Source: Halopseudomonas salegens
Lineage (GTDB): Bacteria; Pseudomonadota; Gammaproteobacteria; Pseudomonadales; Pseudomonadaceae
Direction of reading: 5' to 3'
DNA length: 64,000 nucleotides
Assembly: GCF_900105655.1 (NCBI RefSeq)
Contig: NZ_LT629787.1
Location: 1,488,001-1,552,000, forward strand
The position numbers and the translations under genes were made by a program. Shown one piece after another: positions 15,574-61,941 of this stretch (positions are counted from its first letter, which is position 1; every line of letters begins with the position of its first letter). Below the pieces are notes generated by a model that ran no database searches, was not told where the DNA came from, and saw nothing but the letters and a program-made list of their open reading frames with translations.

Positions 15574-18500
15574 TCACTCGATATCCTGTGGCAGGGGTTG
15601 TGGCAGCGCGTCGCCGCCAAGACCACCCAGCTCGACGTCATCCAGCCAGTCGATCTTGTCCATCTTGCGCACCACAACGAATTCGTCGCGGTTGCAGCCG
15701 ACAGTGCCGTAATAATTGAAGCCCCATGACTGCTGGGCGTAGCCGCCGATCATGTGGGTCGGTTTGAGCACCACCCGGGTGACCGAGTTGTGATGGCCAC
15801 CGCGGGTACCGGTCATTTCACTGCCGGGCATGTTCACGATGCGTTCCTGGGCGTGATACATCATCACCATCCCTTCCATCACCCGCTGACTGACCACCGC
15901 CCGGGCGACCAGGGCGCCGTTGGCGTTGAAACACTCGACCCAGTCGTTGTCCTCGATGCCGGCCTTGGCCGCATCGACCTCGGACAGCCAGATGATCGGG
16001 CCACCACGGCTCAGAGTGAGCATGATCAGGTTGTCCGAGTAGGTGCTGTGGATGCCCCACTTCTGGTGCGGGGTGATCCAGTTAAGCACTATCTCGTTGT
16101 TGCCATTGGGCTTCTTGCCCATGACATAGCCGGTGGTACGGGTGTTGACCGGCGGCCGATAGCTCATCAGTTGCTCGCCGAAGGCTTGCATCCAGGGGTG
16201 ATCCTGGAAGAACTGCTGGCGGCCGGTAATGGTGCGCCAGGGAATGTACTCGTGAACGTTGGTGTAGCAGGCGTTGTAGCTCACGTGTTCGTCTTCCAGG
16301 CCAGACCAGGTCGGGCTGGAGATGATCTTGCGCGGCTGCGCCTGGATATCGCGGAAGCGGATGGCCTCATGCTGCTTGCCGACCGCCAGGTGGCTATGGT
16401 CACGGCCAGTGAACGTCGACAGCGCCTCCCAGGCCTTGACCGCGACATGGCCATTGGTCTCGGGGGCCAGGGACAGAATCACTTCACAGGCGTCGATGGC
16501 CGTGTTGATCTGCGGACGCCCCTGGCTGATGCCCTCCTCCAGTACCTCATGATTCAACTGACCGAGAAACTCGACCTCGTGATCGGTATTCCAGCTGATA
16601 CCCTTGCCGCCGTTGCCGAGCTTCTGCAGTAGCGGACCGAGGGAGCTGAATTTCTTGAAGGTGTTGGGGTAGTCGCGCTCCACCACCACCATGTTCGGGC
16701 AGTTCTTGCCTGGTACCGGCACTTCACCGGCGGTTTTCCAATCGGTCCCGCCAAAGGGCTGAGCCAATTCGCCGGGGCTGTCATGCAGCATGGGGATGGT
16801 GACCAGATCCTGCTCGACCCCCAGTTCTCCTGCGGAGATCTCCGAAAACTTCCTGGCGATGGACTTGTAGATATCCCAATCGGAGCGAGACTCCCAGGCT
16901 GGATCGATGGCCGCAGACAGCGGGTGAATGAAGGGGTGCATGTCCGAGGTGTTCATGTCGTCCTTCTCGTACCAGGTCGCGGTCGGCAGCACGATATCGG
17001 AGTACACGCAGGTCGAGGACATGCGGAAGTCCAGAGTGGTCACCAGATCGATCTTGCCGATGGCGCCCTCTTCTACCCAGTCGGCTTCGGTCGGCTTGAC
17101 GCCGTCACGCTTGCCCAGATCCTCGTTCATGACCCCGTGCTTTGGTGTGCCCAGCAGGTACTTGAGCATGTACTCATGGCCCTTGCCCGAACTGCCCAGC
17201 AGGTTGGAGCGCCAGATAAACATATTGCGCGGGAAGTTATCGCTGTTGTCCGGCTGCTCACAGGCGAAGCGCAGGCTGCCATCCTGCAGGCTCTGTAGCG
17301 CATAGGCCTTGGGGTCCATCCCCAGGGCGGCCGCCTCACGGCAAATGGCCAGCGGGTTGCGGTTGAACTGCGGCGCACTCGGCAGCCAGCCACCCCGCTC
17401 GGCGCGGATGTTGTAGTCGAGCATGTGCTCGGGAAACTGCGACTTGTCGGCCAGCGGCGAGAGGATCTCGTGCACGCTCATCTTCTCGTGGCGCCACTGC
17501 GAGCTGTGGTTGTAGAAGAAGCTGGTGCCGTTCATCTGCCGTGGTGGACGGTTCCAGTCCAGACCGAAGGCCAGCGGCAGCCAGCCGGTCTGCGGGCGCA
17601 GTTTTTCCTGTCCTACATAGTGCGCCCAGCCACCACCGGACTGTCCCACACAGCCACACAACATCAGCATGTTGATCAGGCCACGGTAGTTCATGTCCAT
17701 GTGGTACCAGTGGTTCATCGCCGCGCCGACGATGATCATCGAGCGGCCCTGGGTCTTGTCGGCGTTGTCGGCAAACTCGCGGGCCACGCGGATAACTTTC
17801 TCGCGGCTGACCCCGGTAATCTGCTCCTGCCACGCCGGTGTACCGGGTACGCTGGCGTCGTCATAGCTGCTGGCAACATTGGCACCACCCAGGCCACGGT
17901 CGATGCCCAGTCCGGCCGCCTGGATGTCGAACACGGTAGCGACGCGCAGTTGCTTGCCGTCCGCCAGGGTAAGCACGCGACTGGGCAGGTGGCGGTACTG
18001 GATCTCTTCGCCATCGGCCTGCTGGAAGTGATCGTGCAACTGGCCGCCGAAGTACGGAAAGGCGACATTGACCACTTCGCCGTTGTCGATCTGACTGAGC
18101 TGCAGCACTACCTCACGGCCCTCGCCACCCTCGCGGGCTTCGATGTTCCACTTGCCCGACTCGCCCCAGCGATAGCCGATCGAACCGAGGGGCGAGACCA
18201 ACTGGTCGGTGGTGCTGTCGACCGCGATGGTTTTCCACTCGGGGTTGTTGTCCTGACCAAGCTGATCGTCCAGATCCGAGGCGCGCAGGAAGCGCGTTGG
18301 CTTGTAGCCCTTCTCGGCTTCCTCCAGCAGTACCAGCATCGGCAGGTCTGTATAACGCCGCACGTAATCGGTGAAATAGGCGCTGGGCTTTTCCAGGTGA
18401 AATTCCTTGAAGATCACATGATTGAACGCCTGGGAAAGTGCCGCATCCGTGCCCTGCTTGGGGTTCAGCCAGAGGTCGGTGAGCTTGGCGACCTCGGAAT

Positions 18501-19350
18501 AGTCCGGGGTGATGGCAACCGTCTTGGTGCCCTTGTAACGCACCTCGGTAAAGAAGTGCGCATCTGGCGTACGGGTTTGTGGGACATTCGATCCCCAGGC
18601 AATGATGTAATTGGAGTTGTACCAGTCGGCCGATTCCGGCACGTCGGTCTGCTCGCCCCAGGTCATCGGCGAGGCCGGTGGCAGGTCGCAGTACCAGTCG
18701 TAGAAGCTCAGGCACACGCCACCGATCAGCGACAGGTAGCGGCTGCCTGCGGCGTAGCTGACCATCGACATGGCCGGAATCGGCGAGAAGCCGACCACGC
18801 GATCCGGGCCGTACTGCTTGACGGTATAGACGTTGGCCGCAGCAATGATCTCGGTGACCTCGTTCCAGCTGGAGCGGATAAAACCGCCCAGCCCGCGTTC
18901 AGCCTTGTAGGACGTCGCCTTGGCCGGATCTTCGACAATGCTGCGCCAGGCATCCACCGGCGCCATGGTGGTGCGGGCTTCGCGCCACAGCTTCAGTAGC
19001 GCCTTGCGCACCTTGGGGTATTTCAGGCGGTTGGCGCTGTAGATGTACCAGCTGTAGCTGGCACCGCGCGGGCAGCCCCGTGGCTCGTGGTTGGGCAGGT
19101 CCGGTCGGGTCCGCGGGTAGTCGGTCTGCTGGGTCTCCCAGGTGATCAGGCCATTCTTGACGTAAATCTTCCAGGAACAGGAACCGGTGCAGTTCACCCC
19201 GTGGGTCGAGCGCACGATCTTGTCGTACTGCCAGCGGGCCCGGTAGAAATTTTCCCAGTCGCGAGACTCGATACGGGTCTCGCCGTGGCCGTCAGCAAAC
19301 TCATCCTGTTTGCGCTTGAAGAAGCGAAGCTGATCGAGTAAGTGGCTCAT
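15574..19350 (-). CDS. narG: Respiratory nitrate reductase alpha subunit NarG
   Basis: The 1258-residue catalytic subunit binds bis-MGD and reduces nitrate to nitrite on the cytoplasmic side. The FS0 cluster ligands are visible as His50, Cys54 and Cys58 (STHGVNCTGSC) with the fourth Cys in EPRGCPRG. An Asp in ESADWYNSNY, near residue 223, fits the Mo ligand. The C-terminal region has GGHHNSVTRVVLKPTHM, typical of NarG. Start ATG at 19350 has AGGAG upstream. Gene order narGHJI is intact. Confidence 0.97.
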   Translation of the reverse strand: MSHLLDQLRFFKRKQDEFADGHGETRIESRDWENFYRARWQYDKIVRSTHGVNCTGSCSWKIYVKNGLITWETQQTDYPRTRPDLPNHEPRGCPRGASYSWYIYSANRLKYPKVRKALLKLWREARTTMAPVDAWRSIVEDPAKATSYKAERGLGGFIRSSWNEVTEIIAAANVYTVKQYGPDRVVGFSPIPAMSMVSYAAGSRYLSLIGGVCLSFYDWYCDLPPASPMTWGEQTDVPESADWYNSNYIIAWGSNVPQTRTPDAHFFTEVRYKGTKTVAITPDYSEVAKLTDLWLNPKQGTDAALSQAFNHVIFKEFHLEKPSAYFTDYVRRYTDLPMLVLLEEAEKGYKPTRFLRASDLDDQLGQDNNPEWKTIAVDSTTDQLVSPLGSIGYRWGESGKWNIEAREGGEGREVVLQLSQIDNGEVVNVAFPYFGGQLHDHFQQADGEEIQYRHLPSRVLTLADGKQLRVATVFDIQAAGLGIDRGLGGANVASSYDDASVPGTPAWQEQITGVSREKVIRVAREFADNADKTQGRSMIIVGAAMNHWYHMDMNYRGLINMLMLCGCVGQSGGGWAHYVGQEKLRPQTGWLPLAFGLDWNRPPRQMNGTSFFYNHSSQWRHEKMSVHEILSPLADKSQFPEHMLDYNIRAERGGWLPSAPQFNRNPLAICREAAALGMDPKAYALQSLQDGSLRFACEQPDNSDNFPRNMFIWRSNLLGSSGKGHEYMLKYLLGTPKHGVMNEDLGKRDGVKPTEADWVEEGAIGKIDLVTTLDFRMSSTCVYSDIVLPTATWYEKDDMNTSDMHPFIHPLSAAIDPAWESRSDWDIYKSIARKFSEISAGELGVEQDLVTIPMLHDSPGELAQPFGGTDWKTAGEVPVPGKNCPNMVVVERDYPNTFKKFSSLGPLLQKLGNGGKGISWNTDHEVEFLGQLNHEVLEEGISQGRPQINTAIDACEVILSLAPETNGHVAVKAWEALSTFTGRDHSHLAVGKQHEAIRFRDIQAQPRKIISSPTWSGLEDEHVSYNACYTNVHEYIPWRTITGRQQFFQDHPWMQAFGEQLMSYRPPVNTRTTGYVMGKKPNGNNEIVLNWITPHQKWGIHSTYSDNLIMLTLSRGGPIIWLSEVDAAKAGIEDNDWVECFNANGALVARAVVSQRVMEGMVMMYHAQERIVNMPGSEMTGTRGGHHNSVTRVVLKPTHMIGGYAQQSWGFNYYGTVGCNRDEFVVVRKMDKIDWLDDVELGGLGGDALPQPLPQDIE

Positions 19351-42957: not shown

Positions 42958-43052
42958 TGGCGGAAGGACATGGGAGTCGAACCCACCAGACGCGCGTTGC
43001 GCATCTCACCGGAGTTGAAGTCCGGGCGCCCCACCGGGGACGATGTCCTTCC
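42958..43052 (-). tRNA. selC: tRNA-Sec (anticodon UCA)
   Basis: The minus strand reads GGAAGGACAUCGUCCCCGGU at the 5' end and closes with AUGUCCUUCCGCCA, so the acceptor arm is fully paired and the CCA end is encoded. Length is 95 nt, as in E. coli selC. The anticodon loop CUUCAAC gives UCA at 43016-43018, which reads UGA. The variable arm is long (paired CGCGCG region) as expected for tRNA-Sec. The gene lies 9 kb from the UGSC gene it should serve and 3.7 kb from selB, with Rhs remnants between. Confidence 0.95.
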
Positions 43053-43402
43053 ATTTGATCCTTTCCACCAACAGCGGACACCGCGCAAAGGGAGCTGTAG
43101 CCCCTCAAACAATGTCGGACTGAAGTATTTCGTTGACCTTTGTCGGCGAGCTCGATTGTAATCCACTTCAATGTACCGTGGAATTAACCTTTCCCTGGTT
43201 TGATGGCCATGCGTGTCATTAATCGGGTGCCAGCAGCTCACACCTGTACATGCAAAAAAACCGTGAACTGCATCGCATTTCCGACAACCCACTGACACCT
43301 TTTCTACGGCTTGTTGCTATGATTCTGGCGCCCACGAGGTCGGCGGTAGCCTGCCCGGGTATATCTGATCCATATAGTAGCCACCTGAACAAGGAAATGT
43401 TC
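43053..43402. other. Non-coding stretch between selC and the Rhs fragment
   Basis: About 350 bases with no supported gene. It holds the presumed selC promoter (reading leftward) and the upstream region of the Rhs fragment, with an AAGGA ribosome site at about 43391-43395. No repeat of the selC 3' end was found. Confidence 0.5.
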
Positions 43403-44090
43403 ATGTCAGAGTCCAGCGGGATGCCGGCTGGCCATGTCGGCCAGCAAGTCAAAGGCGGCGCCATTGTCACCGGTTCGCCTAATGTCTATATCGGTTGCAG
43501 CGCCCTCGGCAAGGCCGATTGTGCTTCAGGCCTTTTCCCGCAGGTAGGCGATCCGGTCAACCCGCTGCTCGGCGCCAAGCTGCTGCCTGATGAAGTCGAC
43601 TTTGCCTTGCCTGCACCACGCGCGTTTGCCTTCAGCCGCAGCTACCTGTCCCGTGATGTACGTGTAGGCCCGCTGGGGTCTTTGCTCCGTGGGGGCCGAA
43701 CGTGGGCTGTACTACAACCGGCATCGTTACTATGACCCAGCACTGGGGCGATATGTGAATCAGGACCCTATTGGGCTAGCTGAGGGGATTAATTTTTACA
43801 GCTACGCCAATGGCAATCCTTTAATGAACTTTGATTCATATGGTTTAAAGGCAGAATCAGATGGAAACCCTTGGGAATTCCCTCCGAGCCGCTGGAGTCT
43901 CCCTCATAAATGCGAGACAGAGACTGAATGCTGGGAAAAGGCAAAAGAGAATATATTGAAATGCAGGGTCAATAGAGCTTGTCAAAGCTACTGGAGATGG
44001 TATCAAACTTACTGCCCAGGAAAAATGCCTGCCGCGTCCTGCTCATCGGTCACCTCAACTTGCAACAATACCCACTACAACCTTGCATAA
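43403..44090 (+). pseudogene. Rhs protein with large internal deletion and frameshift
   Basis: The first part, from ATG 43403, is the N-terminal region of an Rhs protein: GGAIVTGSPNVYIGCSALGKADC, then GDPVNPLLGAKLLPDEVDF and [21 protein letters not shown] (DUF6531-type). At about 43681-43695 the frame changes and the sequence jumps to the end of the Rhs core: [43 protein letters not shown]. More than a thousand residues of YD-repeat core are gone. A variable C-terminal tip (about 80 residues, Cys- and Trp-rich) then ends at 44090. It cannot make a normal Rhs shell. Confidence 0.85.
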
Positions 44091-44099
44091 GGAAATCAT

Positions 44100-44411
44100 A
44101 TGAAAAAACTGATAATAGTCCTATTGCTAGGTTTGTTTTTCTTCAGCCTGTTTTTCGGCGTAAAAAAATACATTAACTACAAAGTGAATGAAGAATACTA
44201 TTTCAACATGGCTTTGCAGATAAAATGGAACCTGATCACATTACAAGCTTTGGAAGCTGGCGAATACAATAAAGCGCGGATTTATTCAGAGGAGCAGCTC
44301 GACATACTTTTGGAGCCTTTTCTTGAATACAGTAACTCTTATTCTGGTGCATATGAGAAACAGTTCCGAGAAGTGAACTCCCGTATTGAAGTGCATGAAA
44401 AATCAAAATAA
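44100..44411 (+). CDS. Small membrane-anchored protein, candidate immunity protein
   Basis: A 103-residue protein with an N-terminal hydrophobic helix (LIIVLLLGLFFFSLFFG) and a charged, helical C-terminal part. It starts 9 bases after the Rhs tip, the usual position of the cognate immunity gene. AT-rich, unlike the flanking chromosome. No family recognised; the immunity role is inferred from position only. Confidence 0.55.
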   Translation: MKKLIIVLLLGLFFFSLFFGVKKYINYKVNEEYYFNMALQIKWNLITLQALEAGEYNKARIYSEEQLDILLEPFLEYSNSYSGAYEKQFREVNSRIEVHEKSK

Positions 44412-44424
44412 ACGTTAACCGGAG

Positions 44425-44505
44425 CCAAGGATAACCGGGCCGCGCCGGAAGACTGGGCCGCCACCGTCGCCGCCAACCTGCACAACCCCGACTTCAACCT
44501 GCTGG
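44425..44505 (+). pseudogene. GC-rich coding remnant fused to AT-rich DNA
   Basis: About 80 bases read as an open stretch (EDWAATVAANLHNPDFNLLG) with much higher GC than the sequence on both sides. The frame breaks at the next gene. It looks like a relic of a conserved (core-like) coding segment left by recombination. The parent gene is not identified. Confidence 0.4.
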
Positions 44506-44880
44506 GTGAAGAAAACGTTGTTAGTTCTCTGTGGTGTGCTGTTCGCAGCGCTTTTTGGTTTTTTTGCGATCTTACTCGGCGCGTGCCTTTCCAGCTACGA
44601 AGCAAGTAGTCGTGATGGAACCCTTGTTTTCGCCCTTGTTGGCGTGACAGTTACAGGCACGCTTTGGTTCGGTATTTTGAAAGTTACTTTTCGGGTAAGG
44701 AGTCGTGACCTCGCTTCGCTGTCTTGGTTCCCTCTTGCGTGCGGAGCTATCGGACTCGCATATGACCGTGTACTTGTGCCGGAAGGGTTCAAGCTTCTTG
44801 GGGTGGCCTTGCTCTTGCTTATTGTTGGATGGTTATCTGCACGACGCGTTGCGCGACGGCTCGACCAACCTAGCCGATAG
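44506..44880 (+). CDS. Small integral membrane protein in the Rhs remnant array
   Basis: A 124-residue protein from a GTG start with four hydrophobic helices (LLVLCGVLFAALFGFFAIL, LVFALVGVTVTGTLWFG, WFPLACGAIGLAYDRV, LLGVALLLLIVGWL). No family recognised. It may be an immunity protein or an unrelated insertion. Confidence 0.45.
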   Translation: MKKTLLVLCGVLFAALFGFFAILLGACLSSYEASSRDGTLVFALVGVTVTGTLWFGILKVTFRVRSRDLASLSWFPLACGAIGLAYDRVLVPEGFKLLGVALLLLIVGWLSARRVARRLDQPSR

Positions 44881-44885
44881 GTAAG

Positions 44886-45287
44886 GCCCCTGAAATTCTG
44901 GCGAACAGTACGCATGACGAAGTCAATAAAATAGAGCAGATTTTTAACCAATCAGTACAAGAAATGACAGACAAAGGAATGAGATTGAACACCTCGTCAT
45001 TCATTGGCGGAGTTCTAAACAACAATGTTTCAGAAACAAACGGCTATAGAATGCTCCGGCAATTAACAGGAAAGAACACTCTTATTTGTGGCGAACAATG
45101 GGATGTTGTTTATAGTAAGCTTGCTGATGCACAGGCAAGAGGGGAGTTCGAAGATAAATGGGAGTTTAGTGATGCCCATAGCTTTGGTCACCTTAAAGGT
45201 GTTGCAGTATCTGGCAACCCGTCCGACCCACAGATTAGTTTAGATCCTTGGGTTAATGAGTTCAAAGTTACTCACCCTTCCAATTAG
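44886..45287 (+). pseudogene. Orphan toxin-like C-terminal fragment
   Basis: The frame is open from at least 44886 (EILANSTHDEVNKIEQIFNQ) through ATG 44964 to 45287, but has no convincing start. The downstream part reads NGYRMLRQLTGKNTLICG and EFSDAHSFGHLKGVAVSG. A start-less, polymorphic, AT-rich tip fits an orphan Rhs C-terminal toxin module. No catalytic family recognised. Confidence 0.4.
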
Positions 45288-45336
45288 CGTTAATGAGAAG
45301 AGTGCTTATCATTTTGTGTGAAGCGGGAGTTTATTC

Positions 45337-45567
45337 GTGGCATTAAGAAGCCGAAACATAAATAATTTTATCTATTCAAGAACGTGGGCTCTTGTGCTTC
45401 AAGCTCTATCTCTATTGTTGATCTTCCTGCTATTGATTACACGTAGAAATAGCGATGATATATATGTGATTGCAGCATTGATTGCTGCATTCTTAAACTA
45501 TTTTTCACTGTCTGTCTATTTTAAAAGGTATATTTCATCGATCGTTTTTTTATTGATCATTCTATAA
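45337..45567 (+). CDS. Small two-helix membrane protein
   Basis: A 76-residue protein from GTG with hydrophobic segments (WALVLQALSLLLIFLLLI, IYVIAALIAAFLNYFSL, and IVFLLIIL at the end). It follows the toxin-like fragment by 49 bases, so it may be its immunity protein. Its stop overlaps the next start (TAATG). No family recognised. Confidence 0.4.
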   Translation: MALRSRNINNFIYSRTWALVLQALSLLLIFLLLITRRNSDDIYVIAALIAAFLNYFSLSVYFKRYISSIVFLLIIL

Positions 45568-46107
45568 TGACTCCTGCTTACAATAGCCACAACCGGTATG
45601 TAGAGGCAATAAAATCAGGATTTAGTGTTGAACATTTTGCTGCGGAGAATGCCGCCAATAAATCATACTTTTTGGTTTCTTTAGGGCACGAGGATATTTT
45701 AATAATTAAAATTCATGGCAGTTCAAAAGTAACGTGCCTGGGTGTAGTCGAAATTAATAAAAGACATTGTCAACATATATACAATCGAACCGTGGAAAGA
45801 ACAAATTATCAAGGGCATTAAAGGGTTCAACGGGCAGAAAGAAAGCGAGCATCTGGGGTCGGGTGAAGATCCTGTAGCTCTTATGGCCCTTGACCGTGTT
45901 TTTTCAGAAGTAGATGCGGCGAACATGTCATCGTTTGCAGATATTATGACGGCTACCTTATCGCTGCATGGGGCCTATAAAGGTGTTTTATTTCGCTCAA
46001 GCCATAGTTTGAATGCGGGCTCTCTAGGTGTGGGAGGTTCTGATGTGATTTCCACTATTCACACAACTGGCGAACTCAATAGGACTTTGGAAGGGCATAA
46101 AAAATGA
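45567..46107 (+). pseudogene. Fragmentary Rhs-associated tip, probably frameshifted
   Basis: Two reading frames meet here. The first (45567-45821) gives HNRYVEAIKSGFSVEHFAAE and LVSLGHEDILIIKIHG. The second is open before its ATG at 45883 (IEPWKEQIIKGIKGFNGQ, then MALDRVFSEVDAANMSSFAD) and ends at 46107. I read them as parts of one or two broken toxin-like or immunity-like genes. No family recognised. Confidence 0.35.
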
Positions 46108-46565
46108 AAGTCCGGATTTCTCTATTAGGAGTCATATGGGCGGCATGGGCAATCGACCTCTTTATATTGTTAAATTATGATGTAAAGGAAGCCTCTATTG
46201 AGCAGCATTTTGGGGTGGTAGAAAAGGCTGCCTGCATCACATCAAGGTCTGTGAATGGTCTTAAGCTTTTAATATCATATGACATCAATAGCAGCGCTGA
46301 AGAGTTTTTTAACCTACCTGGAAGGTATCAATGTGAAGACTTGTTGATAGAGAGCTTTCCTGGCAAACAGGTTGCTTTTTCAAAATACAAAAATCGATAT
46401 GTAAGCTTAATTATTGGCGATATTGAGATTCTGGAGGTTGGCGATGGAATAAAGAGGGCGAATAATACTCGCAGATCTATATTTTTCTCTTTGTCATTGG
46501 CACTACTTGCATCTGCAGTAATAATCATAAAAAAACGTAATATCAATCCCCGAAAGAATTTGTAG
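46104..46565 (+). CDS. Two-helix membrane protein, candidate immunity protein
   Basis: A 153-residue protein with an N-terminal helix (ISLLGVIWAAWAIDLFILL) and a C-terminal helix (IFFSLSLALLASAVIII) around a soluble middle. Its ATG overlaps the preceding frame's stop (ATGA), so the two are coupled, as toxin-immunity pairs often are. No family recognised. Confidence 0.45.
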   Translation: MKVRISLLGVIWAAWAIDLFILLNYDVKEASIEQHFGVVEKAACITSRSVNGLKLLISYDINSSAEEFFNLPGRYQCEDLLIESFPGKQVAFSKYKNRYVSLIIGDIEILEVGDGIKRANNTRRSIFFSLSLALLASAVIIIKKRNINPRKNL

Positions 46566-46639
46566 CGACCAACTGATGCAGAATAATGTTTTAAGGTCTG
46601 AATTCATACAATAAGGGAGGGCGGCCTCAGGATACAAGC

Positions 46640-46765
46640 TCGAGGGTGTTCAAAACTCTGTGTCACCGACAGCAGCGTCACAGACTGATGTATTCGTCCA
46701 GGCGCTCGGGGAAGTGGATGGCCATCTGCGACAGCGTCAGGTTCCAACTCTGCGGCGTAGTTTAT
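46640..46765 (-). mobile_element. Remnant of an IS256-family (mutator type) transposase C terminus
   Basis: Read leftward, the sequence encodes SWNLTLSQMAIHFPERLDEY and then ISL before a stop near 46685. This is the usual end of IS256/mutator transposases. The rest of the transposase is missing, cut near 46760. Beyond the stop is GTGTTCAAAACTCTGTGTCA, which resembles the terminal inverted repeat of such elements. It sits between the Rhs remnants and selB. Confidence 0.65.
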
Positions 46766-46799
46766 CGCTAAACAGGGTATCCATCATTGGCCGGCAGGA

Positions 46800-48680
46800 T
46801 CAGTGTTTCTGTTCACGCTGCCATGCCGGTTGCAGAAAGCGCCGCTGCTTGCGATACCAGGTCACGCCGACGCGGTCGAGGTATTCCAGCACCTGAATGG
46901 TCAGGTTGCGGCCGATGCCTGACTGATCGCGGTACTCCGCTGCAACAAAGCCGCCATCGGGCGACTGGTTGCACAGTTCCACGGCCACGGCAGCCAGTTC
47001 ATCCAGCTGTTCGGGCAAATAAAAGCGATTGTGTGCCACGCCCAGCACATAGCCCCATTGCTGCATGCGTTGCATAAAGGCCAGCATCTCTTCCCGGCTA
47101 TGCCCGAGGCTTTCGGCCATTTCGCCGACAATGGGCGGGCGCAGCTTGGACTTGTTCAACTCGGCGGCGACTTTTTCCCACAGCAGCAGATCGCTGGTCG
47201 GCAATTGAGGCTGATGGTTCGGCAAGGCGTAGATGCCGCCCTGTTGCTGTAACTGCTGGTGGCTGACCATCCGCTTGAGCAGCAGCCCACTGCTGGGCGG
47301 TGACAGGCCAATGGCAGCCGCTCGCAACAGTGCATGCTGTGGCAGGCCGCGCTGTTCGGGTTGCTCGGTATGTGCCTGTTGCAGGCGCTGGACGATGCTG
47401 TGTTCGGCCTGGGCAACACGCTCGGGATGCAGCGCCTGCCCCCCTAAATGCACCAGCGGCTCAGCCGCTAGCAAGGCAGCCAGTTCGTTTGGCGTCAGAT
47501 TCCAGCGCCGGGCAAAGGCCGCTATATCCACTTCCTTTTGCTGCGCCAGTTCGACGCCCAGCGCGATGTCTGGCGAATCAACAGGTTGCAGGGCTCGCAA
47601 GCGAGACAAGGCTTCCGGTTTGCTGCGACCGCGCTGGCGGCCAAGCGGATCAATCACCCGGCCACCGCCCAACGTCTGGTTGGCTGCCGGTTCACGCACA
47701 ATCACGGGGTCGCCCTGAATGGCATGCAGGCCATGATCCAGCAGCACCTGGGCCAGGCCGGCAGACTCGTCCAGCCAGACTACCCGGCCACTGCTGGCGG
47801 CAGCGCCGGCAAGCACCTGTAAAGTACCGCGATGCAGCTTGGCATCCGGTAACAGGCGCAAGGAAATATCCAGGCGATCGGTCAGTTGGTGCATCTCGGG
47901 GGCCAGCAACCAGTCACCGCGTTGCGGATGGTCCGCGTCCAGATCGCCAGCCAGATTCAGCGCGGCGCGCTGACCGGCTTTCAGCGCAGTGATCGCTTGC
48001 CCGTCCCTTTGCATGCCGCGAATTCTCACGCTTCCGGCAACAGGTGTCAGGCATAGATGGCTGTCGGTATGCAGCTCGCCATTCAACAAGGTACCGGTGA
48101 CCACACAACCACTACCGGTCACACTGAAACGCCGGTCCACCAGAAAGCGCGGATTACCTGTGCAGTGCCGTGCCGGAATCGACTGTGCCAATTCCGTGAT
48201 GGCCACCTGCAGGTCATCGATGCCCTGCCCCGTTATGGCCGACACTTCCAGCAGTGGGCTGTTGGCGAGCGTTGTGCCTTGCAGCAGCTCAATCGCGGCC
48301 TGCCGTGTCGCTGCCCGTTGTTTGCTGCTGGCCCGGTCAATCGCCGTGAGTACCACCAGGCCCTGCGCAATGCCCAACAGGTCCAGCAGCGCCAGATGCT
48401 CACGGGTTTGCGGCATCGGGCCTTCATCGGCGGCAATCACCAATAACGCTGCATCCGCACCGGCCAGCCCGGCGAGCATGGTACGAATAAAACGTGAATG
48501 TCCCGGCACATCGACAAAGGCAATGGCGCCGGCGTGCGGGTCATGCCGCCAGGCAAAGCCCAGGTCGATGGTCAGCCCGCGGCGTTGCTCGTCAGCCAAC
48601 CGGTCGGTGTTTTTACCCGTCAGCGCCTGGATCAGGGTGGTTTTGCCATGATCGACATGGCCGGCGGTGGCGATAATCAT
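46800..48680 (-). CDS. selB: Selenocysteine-specific elongation factor SelB
   Basis: The 626-residue GTPase delivers Sec-tRNA to UGA codons marked by a SECIS. It has the P-loop GHVDHGKT at residues 7-14, the switch region RRGLTIDLGFAW, DVPGHSRFIRTM, and TAIDRA in the nucleotide-binding domain. The C-terminal half is a series of winged-helix domains that bind the SECIS RNA (ending QVLEYLDRVGVTWYRKQRRF). The ATG overlaps the selA stop by 4 bases. Length is normal for the family. Confidence 0.95.
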   Translation of the reverse strand: MIIATAGHVDHGKTTLIQALTGKNTDRLADEQRRGLTIDLGFAWRHDPHAGAIAFVDVPGHSRFIRTMLAGLAGADAALLVIAADEGPMPQTREHLALLDLLGIAQGLVVLTAIDRASSKQRAATRQAAIELLQGTTLANSPLLEVSAITGQGIDDLQVAITELAQSIPARHCTGNPRFLVDRRFSVTGSGCVVTGTLLNGELHTDSHLCLTPVAGSVRIRGMQRDGQAITALKAGQRAALNLAGDLDADHPQRGDWLLAPEMHQLTDRLDISLRLLPDAKLHRGTLQVLAGAAASSGRVVWLDESAGLAQVLLDHGLHAIQGDPVIVREPAANQTLGGGRVIDPLGRQRGRSKPEALSRLRALQPVDSPDIALGVELAQQKEVDIAAFARRWNLTPNELAALLAAEPLVHLGGQALHPERVAQAEHSIVQRLQQAHTEQPEQRGLPQHALLRAAAIGLSPPSSGLLLKRMVSHQQLQQQGGIYALPNHQPQLPTSDLLLWEKVAAELNKSKLRPPIVGEMAESLGHSREEMLAFMQRMQQWGYVLGVAHNRFYLPEQLDELAAVAVELCNQSPDGGFVAAEYRDQSGIGRNLTIQVLEYLDRVGVTWYRKQRRFLQPAWQREQKH

Positions 48681-50083
48681 GCTTGGGGTTGCGCACAGTC
48701 AGCGTGGAACTGCGCAATCAGGTCATCGGCAGATTCCAGACAACGGCAATCCAGTAGCAGGCTGTCGTCGGCAATGCGGCCAATCACCGGCTGCGCTAAC
48801 CGGCGCAAACGTTCGGCCAGCTCACGCAACTGCCGGCTGCGGAGACGCTTGTTGTTGCTGTTGCTGTGCAGGCGCACGGCTGCGCTGGGCAGCAGCTCCA
48901 GCGGCAGTGAGCCGGAACCGATCTGGCTGTGAACCGGGTGGATGTCGGCACTGAAATCATTCCCAGCCCAGGCCTGCAAGGCCGGCAGCAGCACTGTGGC
49001 GGTTTGTTCGATCTCCGATTGTGTGCGGGTCAGCAAGCGCAGTGTCGGCACGCGAGCAACCAGAGTATCCGGGTTGCTGTACAGCCGCAGCACGGCTTCC
49101 AATGCAGCCAGTGTCAGCTTGTCACAGCGCAGCGCGCGTTTCAGCGGGCTCTTGCGGATGCGGGCAATCAAGTCGGCGCGACCGGCAATAATCCCGGCCT
49201 GCGGGCCGCCCAGCAGCTTGTCGCCACTGAAGGTCACCACATCCACACCCTGAGCCAGAATCTGCCCGACCACGGGCTCTGCCGGCAAACCCAGTGCCTG
49301 CATATCAATCAGCGAACCGCTGCCCAGGTCAACCATCAGGGGCACCTGATGCTCGGCAGCGATGGCCGCCAACTGGGCTTCCGTCACGCTCTTGGTGAAG
49401 CCGGCTACAGCGTAATTGCTGGTATGCACCTTGAGCAGCAAGCCGGTACGCGCATTGATGCCCTCGGCATAATCCCTGACATGGGTGCGGTTGGTGGTGC
49501 CGACTTCATGCAGCTTGCAGTTGGCGCGGGTCATGATGTCGGGCAAACGGAAGGAGCCGCCAATTTCAATCAGCTCGCCGCGCGAAACGATCACCTCACG
49601 GCGCTGTGCCAGCGCATTCAACACCAGGAGCACGGCGGCAGCGTTGTTGTTGACCACCGTTGCTGCTTCTGCGCCGGTCAGGCGGCAAATCCAGTCTTCC
49701 ACATGGGCATCACGATCACCGCGTTTGCCACTGGGCAGATCGTATTCCAGGTTGCTCGCGCCGGCAGCCACGGCGGTCATCGCTTCGATGGCTTCGGGTG
49801 GCAGCGGTGCGCGGCCCAGGTTGGTGTGCAACACGGTACCGGTCAGATTGAACACCGGGCGCATGGAGGGCGTCAGCAAGCGCTCGATGTGCTGCTGAAC
49901 AAAGGTTACCAGCGCAGAGTCATCGGCTATCTCTCCAGCACGCCAATGATTCAGACCGCTGCGCAAAGAATCCAGCACCAGGGTGCGGCCGTGGGTATCG
50001 ATCAGGGCTTGCATGCCCGGCCAGCGAAGTACGGTGTCTACCGCTGGCGGGCGTGGCATGTGCGTCGGGGCTGCGTCGGTCAT
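48677..50083 (-). CDS. selA: L-seryl-tRNA(Sec) selenium transferase SelA
   Basis: The 468-residue PLP enzyme converts Ser-tRNA(Sec) to Sec-tRNA(Sec) with selenophosphate. Signatures: FNLTGTVLHTNLGRAPLP, LEYDLPSGKRGDRD, VNNNAAAVLLVL, EIGGSFRLPDIM, and the PLP lysine at residue 289 in FSGDKLLGGPQAG. It starts 25 bases after the UGSC gene and overlaps selB, so it belongs to the same operon. The selenophosphate synthetase gene selD is not in this window. Confidence 0.96.
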   Translation of the reverse strand: MTDAAPTHMPRPPAVDTVLRWPGMQALIDTHGRTLVLDSLRSGLNHWRAGEIADDSALVTFVQQHIERLLTPSMRPVFNLTGTVLHTNLGRAPLPPEAIEAMTAVAAGASNLEYDLPSGKRGDRDAHVEDWICRLTGAEAATVVNNNAAAVLLVLNALAQRREVIVSRGELIEIGGSFRLPDIMTRANCKLHEVGTTNRTHVRDYAEGINARTGLLLKVHTSNYAVAGFTKSVTEAQLAAIAAEHQVPLMVDLGSGSLIDMQALGLPAEPVVGQILAQGVDVVTFSGDKLLGGPQAGIIAGRADLIARIRKSPLKRALRCDKLTLAALEAVLRLYSNPDTLVARVPTLRLLTRTQSEIEQTATVLLPALQAWAGNDFSADIHPVHSQIGSGSLPLELLPSAAVRLHSNSNNKRLRSRQLRELAERLRRLAQPVIGRIADDSLLLDCRCLESADDLIAQFHADCAQPQA

Positions 50084-50107
50084 CAGGCAGCCCCTCGGAT
50101 GGCTGAC

Positions 50108-50647
50108 TCAGGTGTCGTCGCTGTCAGCGTCGGCGCGCAACAGGCGCAAAATCTCGTCCAGGGCATTGTCTGCCAGGGCGTGCATTTCTGCGTCGGTTCG
50201 GTCCTGAATCGGGTGCGGCACAAAGACCATGGCCGGATCGAAACCCAGCGCTCTGGACTGCAGAGCCGCAGCTTCAACAAATTCACTGGAGGCAACCCCT
50301 ACTCCCGGGATCTGACGTGACTCCAGATCGGCGATGTCATGCATACAGCACGACGTGCACGATCCTCAGTCGGCCAGACCTTCAACCAGCAGGTCAACCT
50401 CAGCAGCCATCTGCTGCTTGAGTTCGGTCGGCGCAATACGGGTAAAGGTCGGTTTGGCGTAACGCTTTACCTCGATACCCATGGCGCTCAACTGTTCCTC
50501 GATCCGATCGAGAAACACGTTGCCGCGTGGCTTGGAAATATCCAGCAGGCCAACGACCTTGCCCTCCAGGCTTTCTGGCCGGGCCAGGCGCTCGCGCTGG
50601 GCCGGTGCCAGCTCGGCCGTAGGGTCGAGCAGTATGCTGTCGTTCAT
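50108..50647 (-). CDS. UGSC-family selenoprotein (in-frame UGA = Sec94)
   Basis: Reading from ATG 50647, 93 codons end at a TGA (50366-50368). The same frame continues through GSCTSCC to a real stop at 50108-50110, giving 179 residues with Sec at position 94. The motif U-G-S-C is the hallmark of the UGSC selenoprotein family, in which Sec or Cys occupies the first position. The N-terminal half contains GKVVGLLDISKPRGNVFLDRIEEQL; the C-terminal half has PGVGVASSEFVEAAALQSRALGFDPAMVFVPHPIQDRT. Both halves are needed. The gene overlaps the thioredoxin-fusion gene (ATGA) and precedes selA by 24 bases. Function unknown; a redox role is likely because U94, C97, C100 and C101 cluster. A standard gene caller would give two short proteins. 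Confidence 0.9.
50325..50368 (-). promoter_or_regulatory. Candidate bacterial SECIS element
   Basis: Directly after the UGA (50366-50368), GGAUCG at 50365-50360 can pair with CGAUCU at 50330-50325 (one G-U). Within, GCAC at 50358-50355 pairs with GUGC at 50351-50348. Position and size fit a SelB-binding hairpin just downstream of UGA. The exact fold, including an apical GU and bulged U, was not computed. Confidence 0.5.
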
Positions 50648-52080
50648 AATTTCACCTCACAGGTTACCGGTGATGAGCCCACCGGGCCGGATGCGGCCCA
50701 GCCGGCGATAATTGCAGAAAACAGGCCGGCAGTACCGCCAACCCGAACAATCAACAGGCCACCCGGGCGGAACTTGGGCACCTGTTGATCCTTGAATTTT
50801 GCGGGAATGCCCTCGGCAATCCCGCCAGCACCGGCTATCAAATCCTTGCCCGGTGCCAGCAGCAACTGTTCCAGCTCTTCGCGCAGACGCTGCTTGGACC
50901 AGCCCGCCTCGATAAATACCCGTGCATGCTCGGGTGAAACCACCAACACGGCATCACCAGCCATCGCCAGTTTGGCATGATCGACCGTGCGCAGCGACAT
51001 GGCAAAGGATTTGGCCAGGGATTCCGGGTCGCGGGATTTCTGATCAACAATGCCCTGCACCCCTTCCCCGGGAAACAGGGTTACCGCCGAGCGGCCGGAG
51101 TCGACACCTCGCTCCTGCGCCAGTGGCAGCCAGTCGGCGTCTTCCGCTTCGGCAAAACAGAAACTGTATTTGCCGGGCGTGCCCATGGTGGCGCGGTCGA
51201 TTTCACCGGGGCGGCCGCCGCCCACATTGCGTACGATCAATTGCAGCGCACGGCCAATGGTGGCATTGGCACGGTTGCCCTGCCCCAGCGCGTTGACGCC
51301 CGAGTTCATGCCGATGGCCTTGGTGATCGGGCCGTTGACCACAATCATCGGGCTGCCAAACATGGTGGTACAGGTCAGGCCGTGCAGGCCGAATTCATCG
51401 GTCAGGGCTGCCTCGACGGCTGCCAGCAACACCGGCATGTATTCCGGCTTGCAGCCGGCCATTACGGCATTGACCGCGACTTTTTCCACCGTGCAGGGCA
51501 CCAGGTCCGGCGGCATCAGGCCCAGCACTTCATCTCCCGCTCGGTCAGTGCCCTTGAGCATGCGCAACACGCGCACCGGGGTCGGCGGCACCACCGGCAA
51601 ACCATCCGTCCAGCCGCGCTCATAGCAGGTTTCCATGGCGTCATCGGCGCCGGCAATATCGATTTCCCGCGACTGCAGGCGCACATCGCCAAAAGCCAGC
51701 TCCAGCTCTTCGGCAATGCCCGGGTCCAGGGTTTTCGAACCGCAGCCGGGGCGCATGACCGGCAAGTCCTCACCCAGCGTGGCCACACCGGACAGCGCCT
51801 GCCAGTCGGCTTTGTGCCAGCCATAGGTGCGTTCGACTTCCTTGCCCTGTTCGACCCGGATCAACGTGGGTACAAACTCGATGCCCAAACGAAAAGACTG
51901 CTCCAGCGTCTGGTCATACTGAGTGCCGGGCAACGCGGCGGCGTAGTCGTCGGAATCCTGTACCAACACCGTCAGCGCACCTGCCTGGTCCAGCTCTGTC
52001 AGGAGCGGCTCAACCAGGCGGCAGGTCGGGCAATCGGCTTTGGCCACTACAATCAGGCCATCGGGCAAGGATAAGGTCAT
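50644..52080 (-). CDS. Thioredoxin-fold fusion protein paired with the UGSC selenoprotein
   Basis: The 478-residue protein has an N-terminal thioredoxin-like domain (about residues 1-100) with the redox motif Cys17-Pro-Thr-Cys20. A large C-terminal region follows with GWTDGLPVVPPTPVRVLRML, GLTCTTMFGSPMIVVNGPITK, NSGVNALGQGNRANATIGRALQLIVRNVGGG, and FRPGGLLIVRVGGTAGLFSAII. I recognise the C-terminal part only as the type found beside UGSC proteins; it has no function I can name. Its stop overlaps the selenoprotein start. The gene heads the operon and may reduce, or act with, the selenoprotein (inference). Confidence 0.65.
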   Translation of the reverse strand: MTLSLPDGLIVVAKADCPTCRLVEPLLTELDQAGALTVLVQDSDDYAAALPGTQYDQTLEQSFRLGIEFVPTLIRVEQGKEVERTYGWHKADWQALSGVATLGEDLPVMRPGCGSKTLDPGIAEELELAFGDVRLQSREIDIAGADDAMETCYERGWTDGLPVVPPTPVRVLRMLKGTDRAGDEVLGLMPPDLVPCTVEKVAVNAVMAGCKPEYMPVLLAAVEAALTDEFGLHGLTCTTMFGSPMIVVNGPITKAIGMNSGVNALGQGNRANATIGRALQLIVRNVGGGRPGEIDRATMGTPGKYSFCFAEAEDADWLPLAQERGVDSGRSAVTLFPGEGVQGIVDQKSRDPESLAKSFAMSLRTVDHAKLAMAGDAVLVVSPEHARVFIEAGWSKQRLREELEQLLLAPGKDLIAGAGGIAEGIPAKFKDQQVPKFRPGGLLIVRVGGTAGLFSAIIAGWAASGPVGSSPVTCEVKL

Positions 52081-60837: not shown

Positions 60838-61941
60838 TCAAGGTACCAGAGCGGTAAAACAAAAGCTCTGCACATAAAGCCCCTCGGTATCATCGTAACC
60901 ATTGGCGTAAGCGAAGTTCGCTCTGAAGCCATTGACCGTCGTCTCTCGCGTGTCGGGAAAGGCCGGATAATATTTACCGGTATCCGGGAATATCGGCGAG
61001 TTCATATTGGAGAGCATGACCACCGGAACGCTAGCCAGGGGCGAATTGAAGTTGACCCGGTAGTAACGATAATCCTCAGTCGAGGTCGAACAATCGCCTC
61101 CCAGGCACTGAGCAGTCCAGTCGCCTGAGCCCGCATTCATGATGCTGCCATCAAAGTTGACGCAGCCATGGACGATTCGAGATACCCCTTGCGCTCCACC
61201 AGCAGGACCTGGCTCCCCCTGAATACCCTGTGGACCGGGTTCACCTTGTGGTCCAGGCACCCCTTGGTCCCCCTGAGCCCCTGCCGGACCCGGTTCACCT
61301 TGCGGGCCTTGTATGCCGGTTTCACCTTGCGGGCCTTGCGGGCCTTGAGGTCCTTCAGGGCCTTCTGGTCCAGCAGGTCCGATCAGGCTGACGCCAGCCG
61401 GCCAGCTTCCGGCAGTCTTCGGACCATAGAGCATGCTGACTGATTGATCATAGAAGAGATCACCATCATTTCCCTGTGTATCCACGGGTGCACCGGTACC
61501 GGACAGAATGGTTCGGCCGTTCTCACCCTGAAGCCCCTGAGGCCCGGGCGGCCCTGGAAGTCCAGGCACCCCTTGGTCCCCCTGAGCCCCTGCCGGGCCG
61601 ATGTCACCTGCTGGTCCCTGAGGACCCTCAGGTCCGGCTGGTCCCGCTGGACCTTCGGGCCCAACGGCGACACCTGTGGCACAAGGGCCGAGTTGACCGT
61701 TGGCAGCGTCGTGACACAGCACCGTATCGGTGTCAGGGGACCCCGTGATTCCTGGCAGCCGTACGATGCCGGCATCATCCACACGCAAATAGGTAGTGCC
61801 ACCGTCGTCCTTGATCACAAAGGCGCCCCCTGATGGCAGGGTTGCGATGATTTCATTGGCCATCAAGGGTGCTGAAGCTATCAGCCCTGCCACAACCAGC
61901 ATGAAACAAGGAGTTTTATGGGCATTATCCCTTATCAACAT
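60838..61941 (-). CDS. Secreted collagen-like (G-X-Y) repeat protein
   Basis: The 367-residue protein has a signal peptide ([14 protein letters not shown]), an N-terminal domain ([20 protein letters not shown]), a first Gly-X-Y block at about residues 94-145, a short linker ([19 protein letters not shown]), a second Gly-X-Y block at about 187-252, and a C-terminal domain of about 110 residues with four cysteines. The repeats should form a collagen-like triple helix at the cell surface. DNA in both blocks is repetitive, so recombination is possible. Role unknown; adhesion is inference. Confidence 0.8.

Follow-up and report, generated by a model that had tools for sequence, protein, structure and literature searches.

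In a stretch of 64,000 nucleotides (nt) from the Halopseudomonas salegens genome, which we call the window, a minus-strand gene interrupted by an in-frame TGA probably encodes a selenocysteine (Sec)-containing member of the UGSC family, a reading well supported by homology on both sides of the TGA. Comparison across genomes gives strong support for this protein and the product of the gene directly upstream, hereafter the partner, being two subunits of one enzyme. We think it rather probable that the pair is a thioredoxin-reduced, Sec- or cysteine-dependent reductase that works like GrdB and PrdB, perhaps on a carboxylate or CoA ester. The 'uncharacterised' UGSC protein would then become part of a defined protein pair, for which a reductant can be named and a few classes of substrate put forward for testing.

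Reading frame and family of the selenoprotein

The frame (50647-50108, minus strand) contains a single TGA as codon 94 (50366-50368), followed by 85 open codons of which the first three are GGA TCG TGC (Gly-Ser-Cys), and the motif around it reads U94-G-S-C97-T-S-C100-C101. A preliminary description of the window had reported this frame and its TGA, the codons for Gly-Ser-Cys after it, the open run of 85 codons and the cysteines 97, 100 and 101, all of which proved exact, and had placed the protein in the U-G-S-C family. Two curated models confirm that placement by matching the read-through protein across the TGA, namely Pfam PF24696 (137.7 bits, cut-off 25, residues 6-171) and NCBIfam NF041046, UGSC_fam (148.1 bits, cut-off 125, residues 29-171). 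When both halves were aligned with relatives, 17 homologues ran across the junction, 15 with UGA and two with Cys at the Sec position, and 32 further family members with Cys at this position likewise spanned it; the Sec- and Cys-type homologues are thus continuous and do not end at the TGA. Columns 94-97 (U shown as C) are invariant in alignments of both 18 and 33 rows. Since both curated models match across the TGA and homologues of both types span the junction, we regard the UGSC reading as settled. The window protein itself shows no difference from the family, with which it shares the motif and the Cys homologues. The expectation that a standard annotation would report a truncated protein and a separate short one is right only in part, as NCBI now has NF041046 and some relatives are named 'UGSC family (seleno)protein'.

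With 255 Sec sequences in the Global Ocean Sampling (GOS) survey, among whose selenoproteins it was described, UGSC ranks with the more abundant selenoprotein families of aquatic samples (PMC2398784). A 2026 review still lists it among families with largely uncharacterised functions (PMC13188914).

Could translation simply end at the UGA, leaving only a 93-residue product or a decayed gene? The in-frame TGA itself would fit this. So would three of eight close database relatives, hand-picked among the 120 matches listed, in which the Sec position is taken by Trp (two) or Arg (one) (P0218, P0228 and P0223), through either errors of gene calling or genuine losses; the other five carry Cys. The open run beyond the TGA is weak evidence alone, given that 29 of 172 TGA stops that follow at least 90 open codons in this GC-rich window (six frames, shadow frames included) precede at least 85 open codons. 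Homology on both sides of the TGA, retention of UGA in the window and 15 related loci, the presence of the Sec machinery and a synonymous bias in the loop codon described below all argue against termination, which we consider very improbable.

Decoding of the UGA codon

The preliminary description had named tRNA-Sec, selA and selB in the window, and each was recovered by its respective model or program (Table 1); selD lies outside the window, elsewhere in the genome. selA starts 24 bases past the UGSC stop codon, selB overlaps selA by ATGA and the partner stop overlaps the UGSC start by ATGA as well. Because of this spacing and these overlaps partner, UGSC, selA and selB are likely to be carried on one transcript. 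At two other UGSC loci (L074, L089) selA and selB are also nearby, and at a third (L051) selB alone.

Directly 3' of the UGA a hairpin is predicted with a spacing of 18 nt from UGA to loop, a loop of 5, an upper stem of 7 and G as the second loop base. These values lie within the limits given in the review for a bacterial selenocysteine insertion sequence (bSECIS), which are an apical loop of 3-9 nt, an upper stem of 4-16 bp, a G among the first two bases of the loop and a spacing of 16-37 nt (PMC13188914). The 53 nt around and after the UGA fold with -25.5 kcal/mol (z -3.7; none of 200 dinucleotide shuffles as good) and the 41 nt after it with a z of -3.0 (1 of 200 shuffles as good). UGA is kept at this codon in 16 loci, the window included. 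Of the Sec-type genes, 14 (again with the window) have a loop codon for Ser or Cys, and all 14 use NGT there (AGT or TGT), where 4.8 would be expected from the T/C use of each gene; the P value of 5e-8 assumes independence of loci that are in fact not independent. Cys-type loci with AGY or TGY at the same codon have it T-ending in 1 of 28.

Some results weaken the hairpin evidence. The bSECIS criteria are not specific alone: 13 of the 37 Cys sequences pass them, along with 12 of the 16 Sec sequences. The GU loop is missing from two Sec loci (L006, L015). Covariation is slight, as a single pair shows changes in both of its bases, and this in two sequences; of 500 shuffles, 186 reached the observed pair count, 11 the covariation score and 3 the percentage paired. 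Sliding the partner columns of the hairpin gave 8 to 58% paired versus 80% in register. At least eight changes between Sec and Cys are required by parsimony on a quick tree of 59 sequences, of which the strongly supported branches force only two. Homology across the TGA, Cys in relatives, the hairpin, the loop-base bias and the machinery in place together lend good support to decoding of UGA94 as Sec, probably by SelA, SelB and tRNA-Sec with a SECIS inside the coding region, as the preliminary description had held.

A search of the genome for FdhA, made without covering all other selenoprotein families, gave no match over the cut-off and listed none with an inside stop. A 1267-residue frame at about 18331-18630 (minus) weakly resembles the model of formate dehydrogenase alpha. 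Between tRNA-Sec and selB lies a low-GC stretch with small frames (about 44000-47000; 39-47%, compared with about 61-64% over 47000-52000), beside which a frame at 43250-43735 appears RHS-like by eye.

A partner gene that accompanies UGSC

The preliminary description had read a redox function and a family from the UGSC gene, which stands, and had overlooked its main context, the gene directly upstream. Residues about 1-99 of the partner form a thioredoxin-fold domain with the motif CPTC, and CxxC is present in 120 of 120 close homologues among the matches listed; the main domain at about 145-470 is without a Pfam or NCBIfam model. The full-length protein has at least 8000 relatives, whose names include Halopseudomonas, Pseudohongiella and Marinobacter. 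In an alignment of 38 rows Cys210 never varies, nor do 17 other positions.

To follow the two genes, genomes of the order and of the phylum were searched; one genome (G000) belongs to both samples, and in the phylum sample scoring was limited to each genome's best candidates. Among 145 genomes of the order UGSC (over cut-off) and the partner occur in the same 10, with 14 genes each, and among 398 genomes of the phylum in the same five, one of which (G270) has three partner matches to two UGSC genes. For the neighbourhood 54 loci were compared, 19 from these searches and 35 from a Cys-requiring pattern that is blind to Sec forms. L020 was counted despite a break in its reading frame ahead of the motif, and a second match at that locus (L023) was left out, as were three candidates below the family cut-off (L011, with five stops, and L012 and L013, which look like frames of FAD proteins). 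The partner adjoins UGSC at 53 of the 54 loci, from haloarchaea to actinobacteria. At 52 both lie on the same strand and their domain ends are no more than 422 nt apart, the partner first in 32 and UGSC first in 20, and in L014 a single 552-residue frame holds UGSC followed by the partner domain. Co-occurrence, adjacency and fusion strongly support the view that UGSC and the upstream protein are two subunits of one enzyme. UGSC is missing from sixteen genomes listed for the family to which the window belongs, and the operon looks patchily spread.

The GOS paper describes a UGSC/'Unknown_1' fusion in which UGSC is joined to a conserved unknown domain (PMC2398784). As L014 fuses UGSC to the partner domain in the same manner, 'Unknown_1' is probably the partner domain; what differs is that the partner adjoins UGSC at nearly all loci and not in a fusion alone. 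In the literature examined, which is mostly outside subscription journals, the near one-to-one partner (beyond that fusion), the link to thioredoxin and thioredoxin reductase (TrxR) and the GrdB/PrdB likeness are unreported, and we take these, along with the flavodoxin-like model described below, to be new.

Likeness to GrdB and PrdB

GrdB and PrdB work with a second subunit (GrdE and PrdA, respectively) that carries a pyruvoyl group. They belong to the glycine, betaine, sarcosine and D-proline reductases (TIGR01917, TIGR01918, TIGR04483, PF07355), and UGSC resembles them in having a probable second subunit, a proposed thioredoxin/TrxR reductant as in the glycine system and a UxxC motif at nearly the same distance from the C-terminus. 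After UGSC itself they also supply the commonest NCBIfam matches, GrdB for 14 and PrdB for 13 of the 33 members aligned, ahead of GrdF (7), various_sel_PB (5), CheD (5) and GrdH (4). The window protein matches TIGR01917 (GrdB) over residues 77-170 with an E of 0.0046. Its Sec94 lies 85 residues from the C-terminus, which we counted as agreeing with a C-terminal UxxC at about 86-90; the distances in C. sticklandii GrdB, GrdH and PrdB are 86, 88 and 90 as computed from table values in the source, which also gives the electron path of glycine reduction as NADPH to thioredoxin reductase to thioredoxin (PMC3091704). U94-C97-C100 has the UxxCxxC spacing noted for GrdB in the review (PMC13188914), with C100 replaced in many other UGSC members.

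In place of true clostridial GrdB/PrdB we used a set of GrdB-like proteobacterial proteins, drawn from the genome sample given below and from one homologue search and consisting of 17 rows, or of 121 database proteins and those rows. Profile comparison placed CGSC over NCPVC with P 6e-4, or 4e-4 with more sequences, and two unrelated control pairs gave 0.54 and 0.36. Cys-type GrdB-like proteins (NCPVC/NCPIC) were seen in 5 of 299 sampled phylum genomes (L059:1102-2004 and L060-L063), and the names glycine reductase and PrdB occur among their relatives in the database.

UGSC also departs from GrdB: it is at most half as long, its scores are far below the cut-off, the partner is not recognisable as GrdE/PrdA and its genomes are those of presumably aerobic organisms. 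Because the model scores and the hidden Markov model (HMM) tests detailed below are weak, we write that UGSC works like GrdB and PrdB and not that it is a member. A stronger version, of which we are doubtful, would make UGSC and its partner a further widespread branch of GrdB/PrdB, that is, a two-subunit, Sec- or Cys-dependent, thioredoxin-fuelled reductase that would break a bond in carboxylates or their CoA esters. It would be at work in haloarchaea and in prokaryotes of sea and soil, all presumably aerobic, and in the lineage of the window its electron donor would be built into the partner.

Predicted fold, neighbouring genes and proposed reaction

The structure model of UGSC (pLDDT 92.4, pTM 0.86) alternates strands and helices five times and places Sec94 between strand 86-92 (strand 3) and helix 95-110. 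The structural matches listed include flavodoxins, the FMN reductase SsuE, response regulators (CheY-like) and PurE, so that the predicted fold looks flavodoxin-like, a common arrangement that says nothing on function. A thioredoxin-like fold had been guessed in the GOS paper (PMC2398784). Thioredoxins are not among the matches listed, an absence that counts for little against a thioredoxin topology; the order of elements is flavodoxin/CheY-like.

The redox role claimed in the preliminary description gains support from those parts of the family in which a thioredoxin domain or a thioredoxin reductase is an immediate neighbour. TrxR is found near 8 of the 54 loci, within the apparent operon at four Alcaligenaceae loci, the nine loci of that family being close kin. 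Family III CoA-transferase genes lie near 23 loci and TctC-type receptors near 13; the CoA-transferase, transporter and TrxR figures are raw counts without a background rate. In L090 the gene just upstream of the partner encodes the C4-dicarboxylate transporter DctA, in L080 the partner adjoins a class I fumarase gene, and lyase-superfamily and methylisocitrate-lyase-like genes are near L024. These neighbours hint at carboxylates and CoA esters and at nothing more specific.

In the proposed mechanism Sec94, sited where strand 3 gives way to the following helix in the predicted flavodoxin-like fold, would be the nucleophile. After turnover a selenosulfide would form between Sec94 and Cys97 (or Cys100/101), to be reduced by the partner's own thioredoxin domain through its CPTC motif, and that domain would be recharged by thioredoxin reductase and NADPH. 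The reaction may be the reductive cleavage or the reduction of a small carboxylate or CoA ester, a type we propose because of the distant GrdB/PrdB likeness and the neighbours in other genomes.

A number of observations weigh against this GrdB/PrdB-like reductase. The TIGR01917 score of 15.9 bits is far below the cut-off of 602.2, and PF07355 (GrdB) gave no match to UGSC at E up to 5. The same model found nothing in the window's own genome, which carries little weight as it found nothing in control genomes either. The hhalign probability between UGSC and the GrdB-like set was only 28-35%; the UGSC HMM reached these proteins with a best E of 0.13, behind an unrelated neighbour frame at 0.013, and the GrdB-like HMM reached UGSC with 0.018, a reversed decoy scoring 0.06. 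These weak direct tests slightly lowered our confidence. Neither GrdE nor PrdA appeared among NCBIfam matches (E up to 5) of 38 aligned partner members. UGSC and partner lie side by side on opposite strands in L002, and in a Methanobrevibacter bin (L053:9965-10480) UGSC stands without a partner, close behind a lysyl-tRNA synthetase gene. TrxR is absent at 40% identity from the stretch of 46 of the 54 loci, and the neighbour figures, as raw counts, also count for less.

Two other functions were considered for the pair. UGSC could be a general thiol oxidoreductase or peroxidase of antioxidant type, with a regulatory or substrate-docking partner and no C-X cleavage, as the UxxC/UxxCxxC motif, the association with thioredoxin and TrxR and the thioredoxin-like fold guessed in the GOS paper would allow. 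We find this unlikely: the predicted fold of five alternating strands and helices has flavodoxin/CheY-like matches among those listed, and a large partner domain kept nearly one-to-one, like the carboxylate-uptake and CoA-activation neighbours in several lineages, looks catabolic and not protective. Somewhat less likely still, Sec or Cys could act as a nucleophile outside redox chemistry, say in a lyase or in acyl transfer on a CoA ester, with thioredoxin only maintaining it in the reduced state. The CoA-transferase genes, the lyase-superfamily genes near L024 and the fumarase gene in L080 agree with such a role, and the partner itself has a weak Foldseek likeness to class I fumarase (E 1.6e-4, TM 0.24); yet the thioredoxin domain fused to the partner and the TrxR gene in the apparent operon of the four Alcaligenaceae loci suggest stoichiometric reduction.

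Other features of the window

Table 1. Genes and RNA elements of the UGSC region (window positions).
Feature	Position	Strand	Description
Partner gene, 478 aa	50644..52080	-	Thioredoxin-fold N-terminus about 1-99 (CPTC); main domain about 145-470
UGSC selenoprotein gene, 179 residues, probable Sec94 at TGA 50366-50368	50108..50647	-	Matched by PF24696 and NF041046 on both sides of the TGA
SECIS-like hairpin just after the UGA	50325..50365	-	7-bp upper stem, loop UGUAU
selA, Sec synthase	48677-50083	-	TIGR00474, 581.9 bits (cut-off 267.9)
selB, Sec-specific elongation factor	46800-48680	-	TIGR00475, 388.9 bits (cut-off 242.25)
tRNA-Sec (selC), anticodon TCA	42958-43052	-	ARAGORN; Rfam RF01852, 80.1 bits

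Directly upstream of the selenoprotein operon and on the same strand is a RES/Xre type II toxin-antitoxin pair (NF049844, TIGR02293; 52220-53148, minus). Elsewhere in the window a 367-residue frame (60838-61941, minus) has long Gly-Pro-rich collagen-like repeats.
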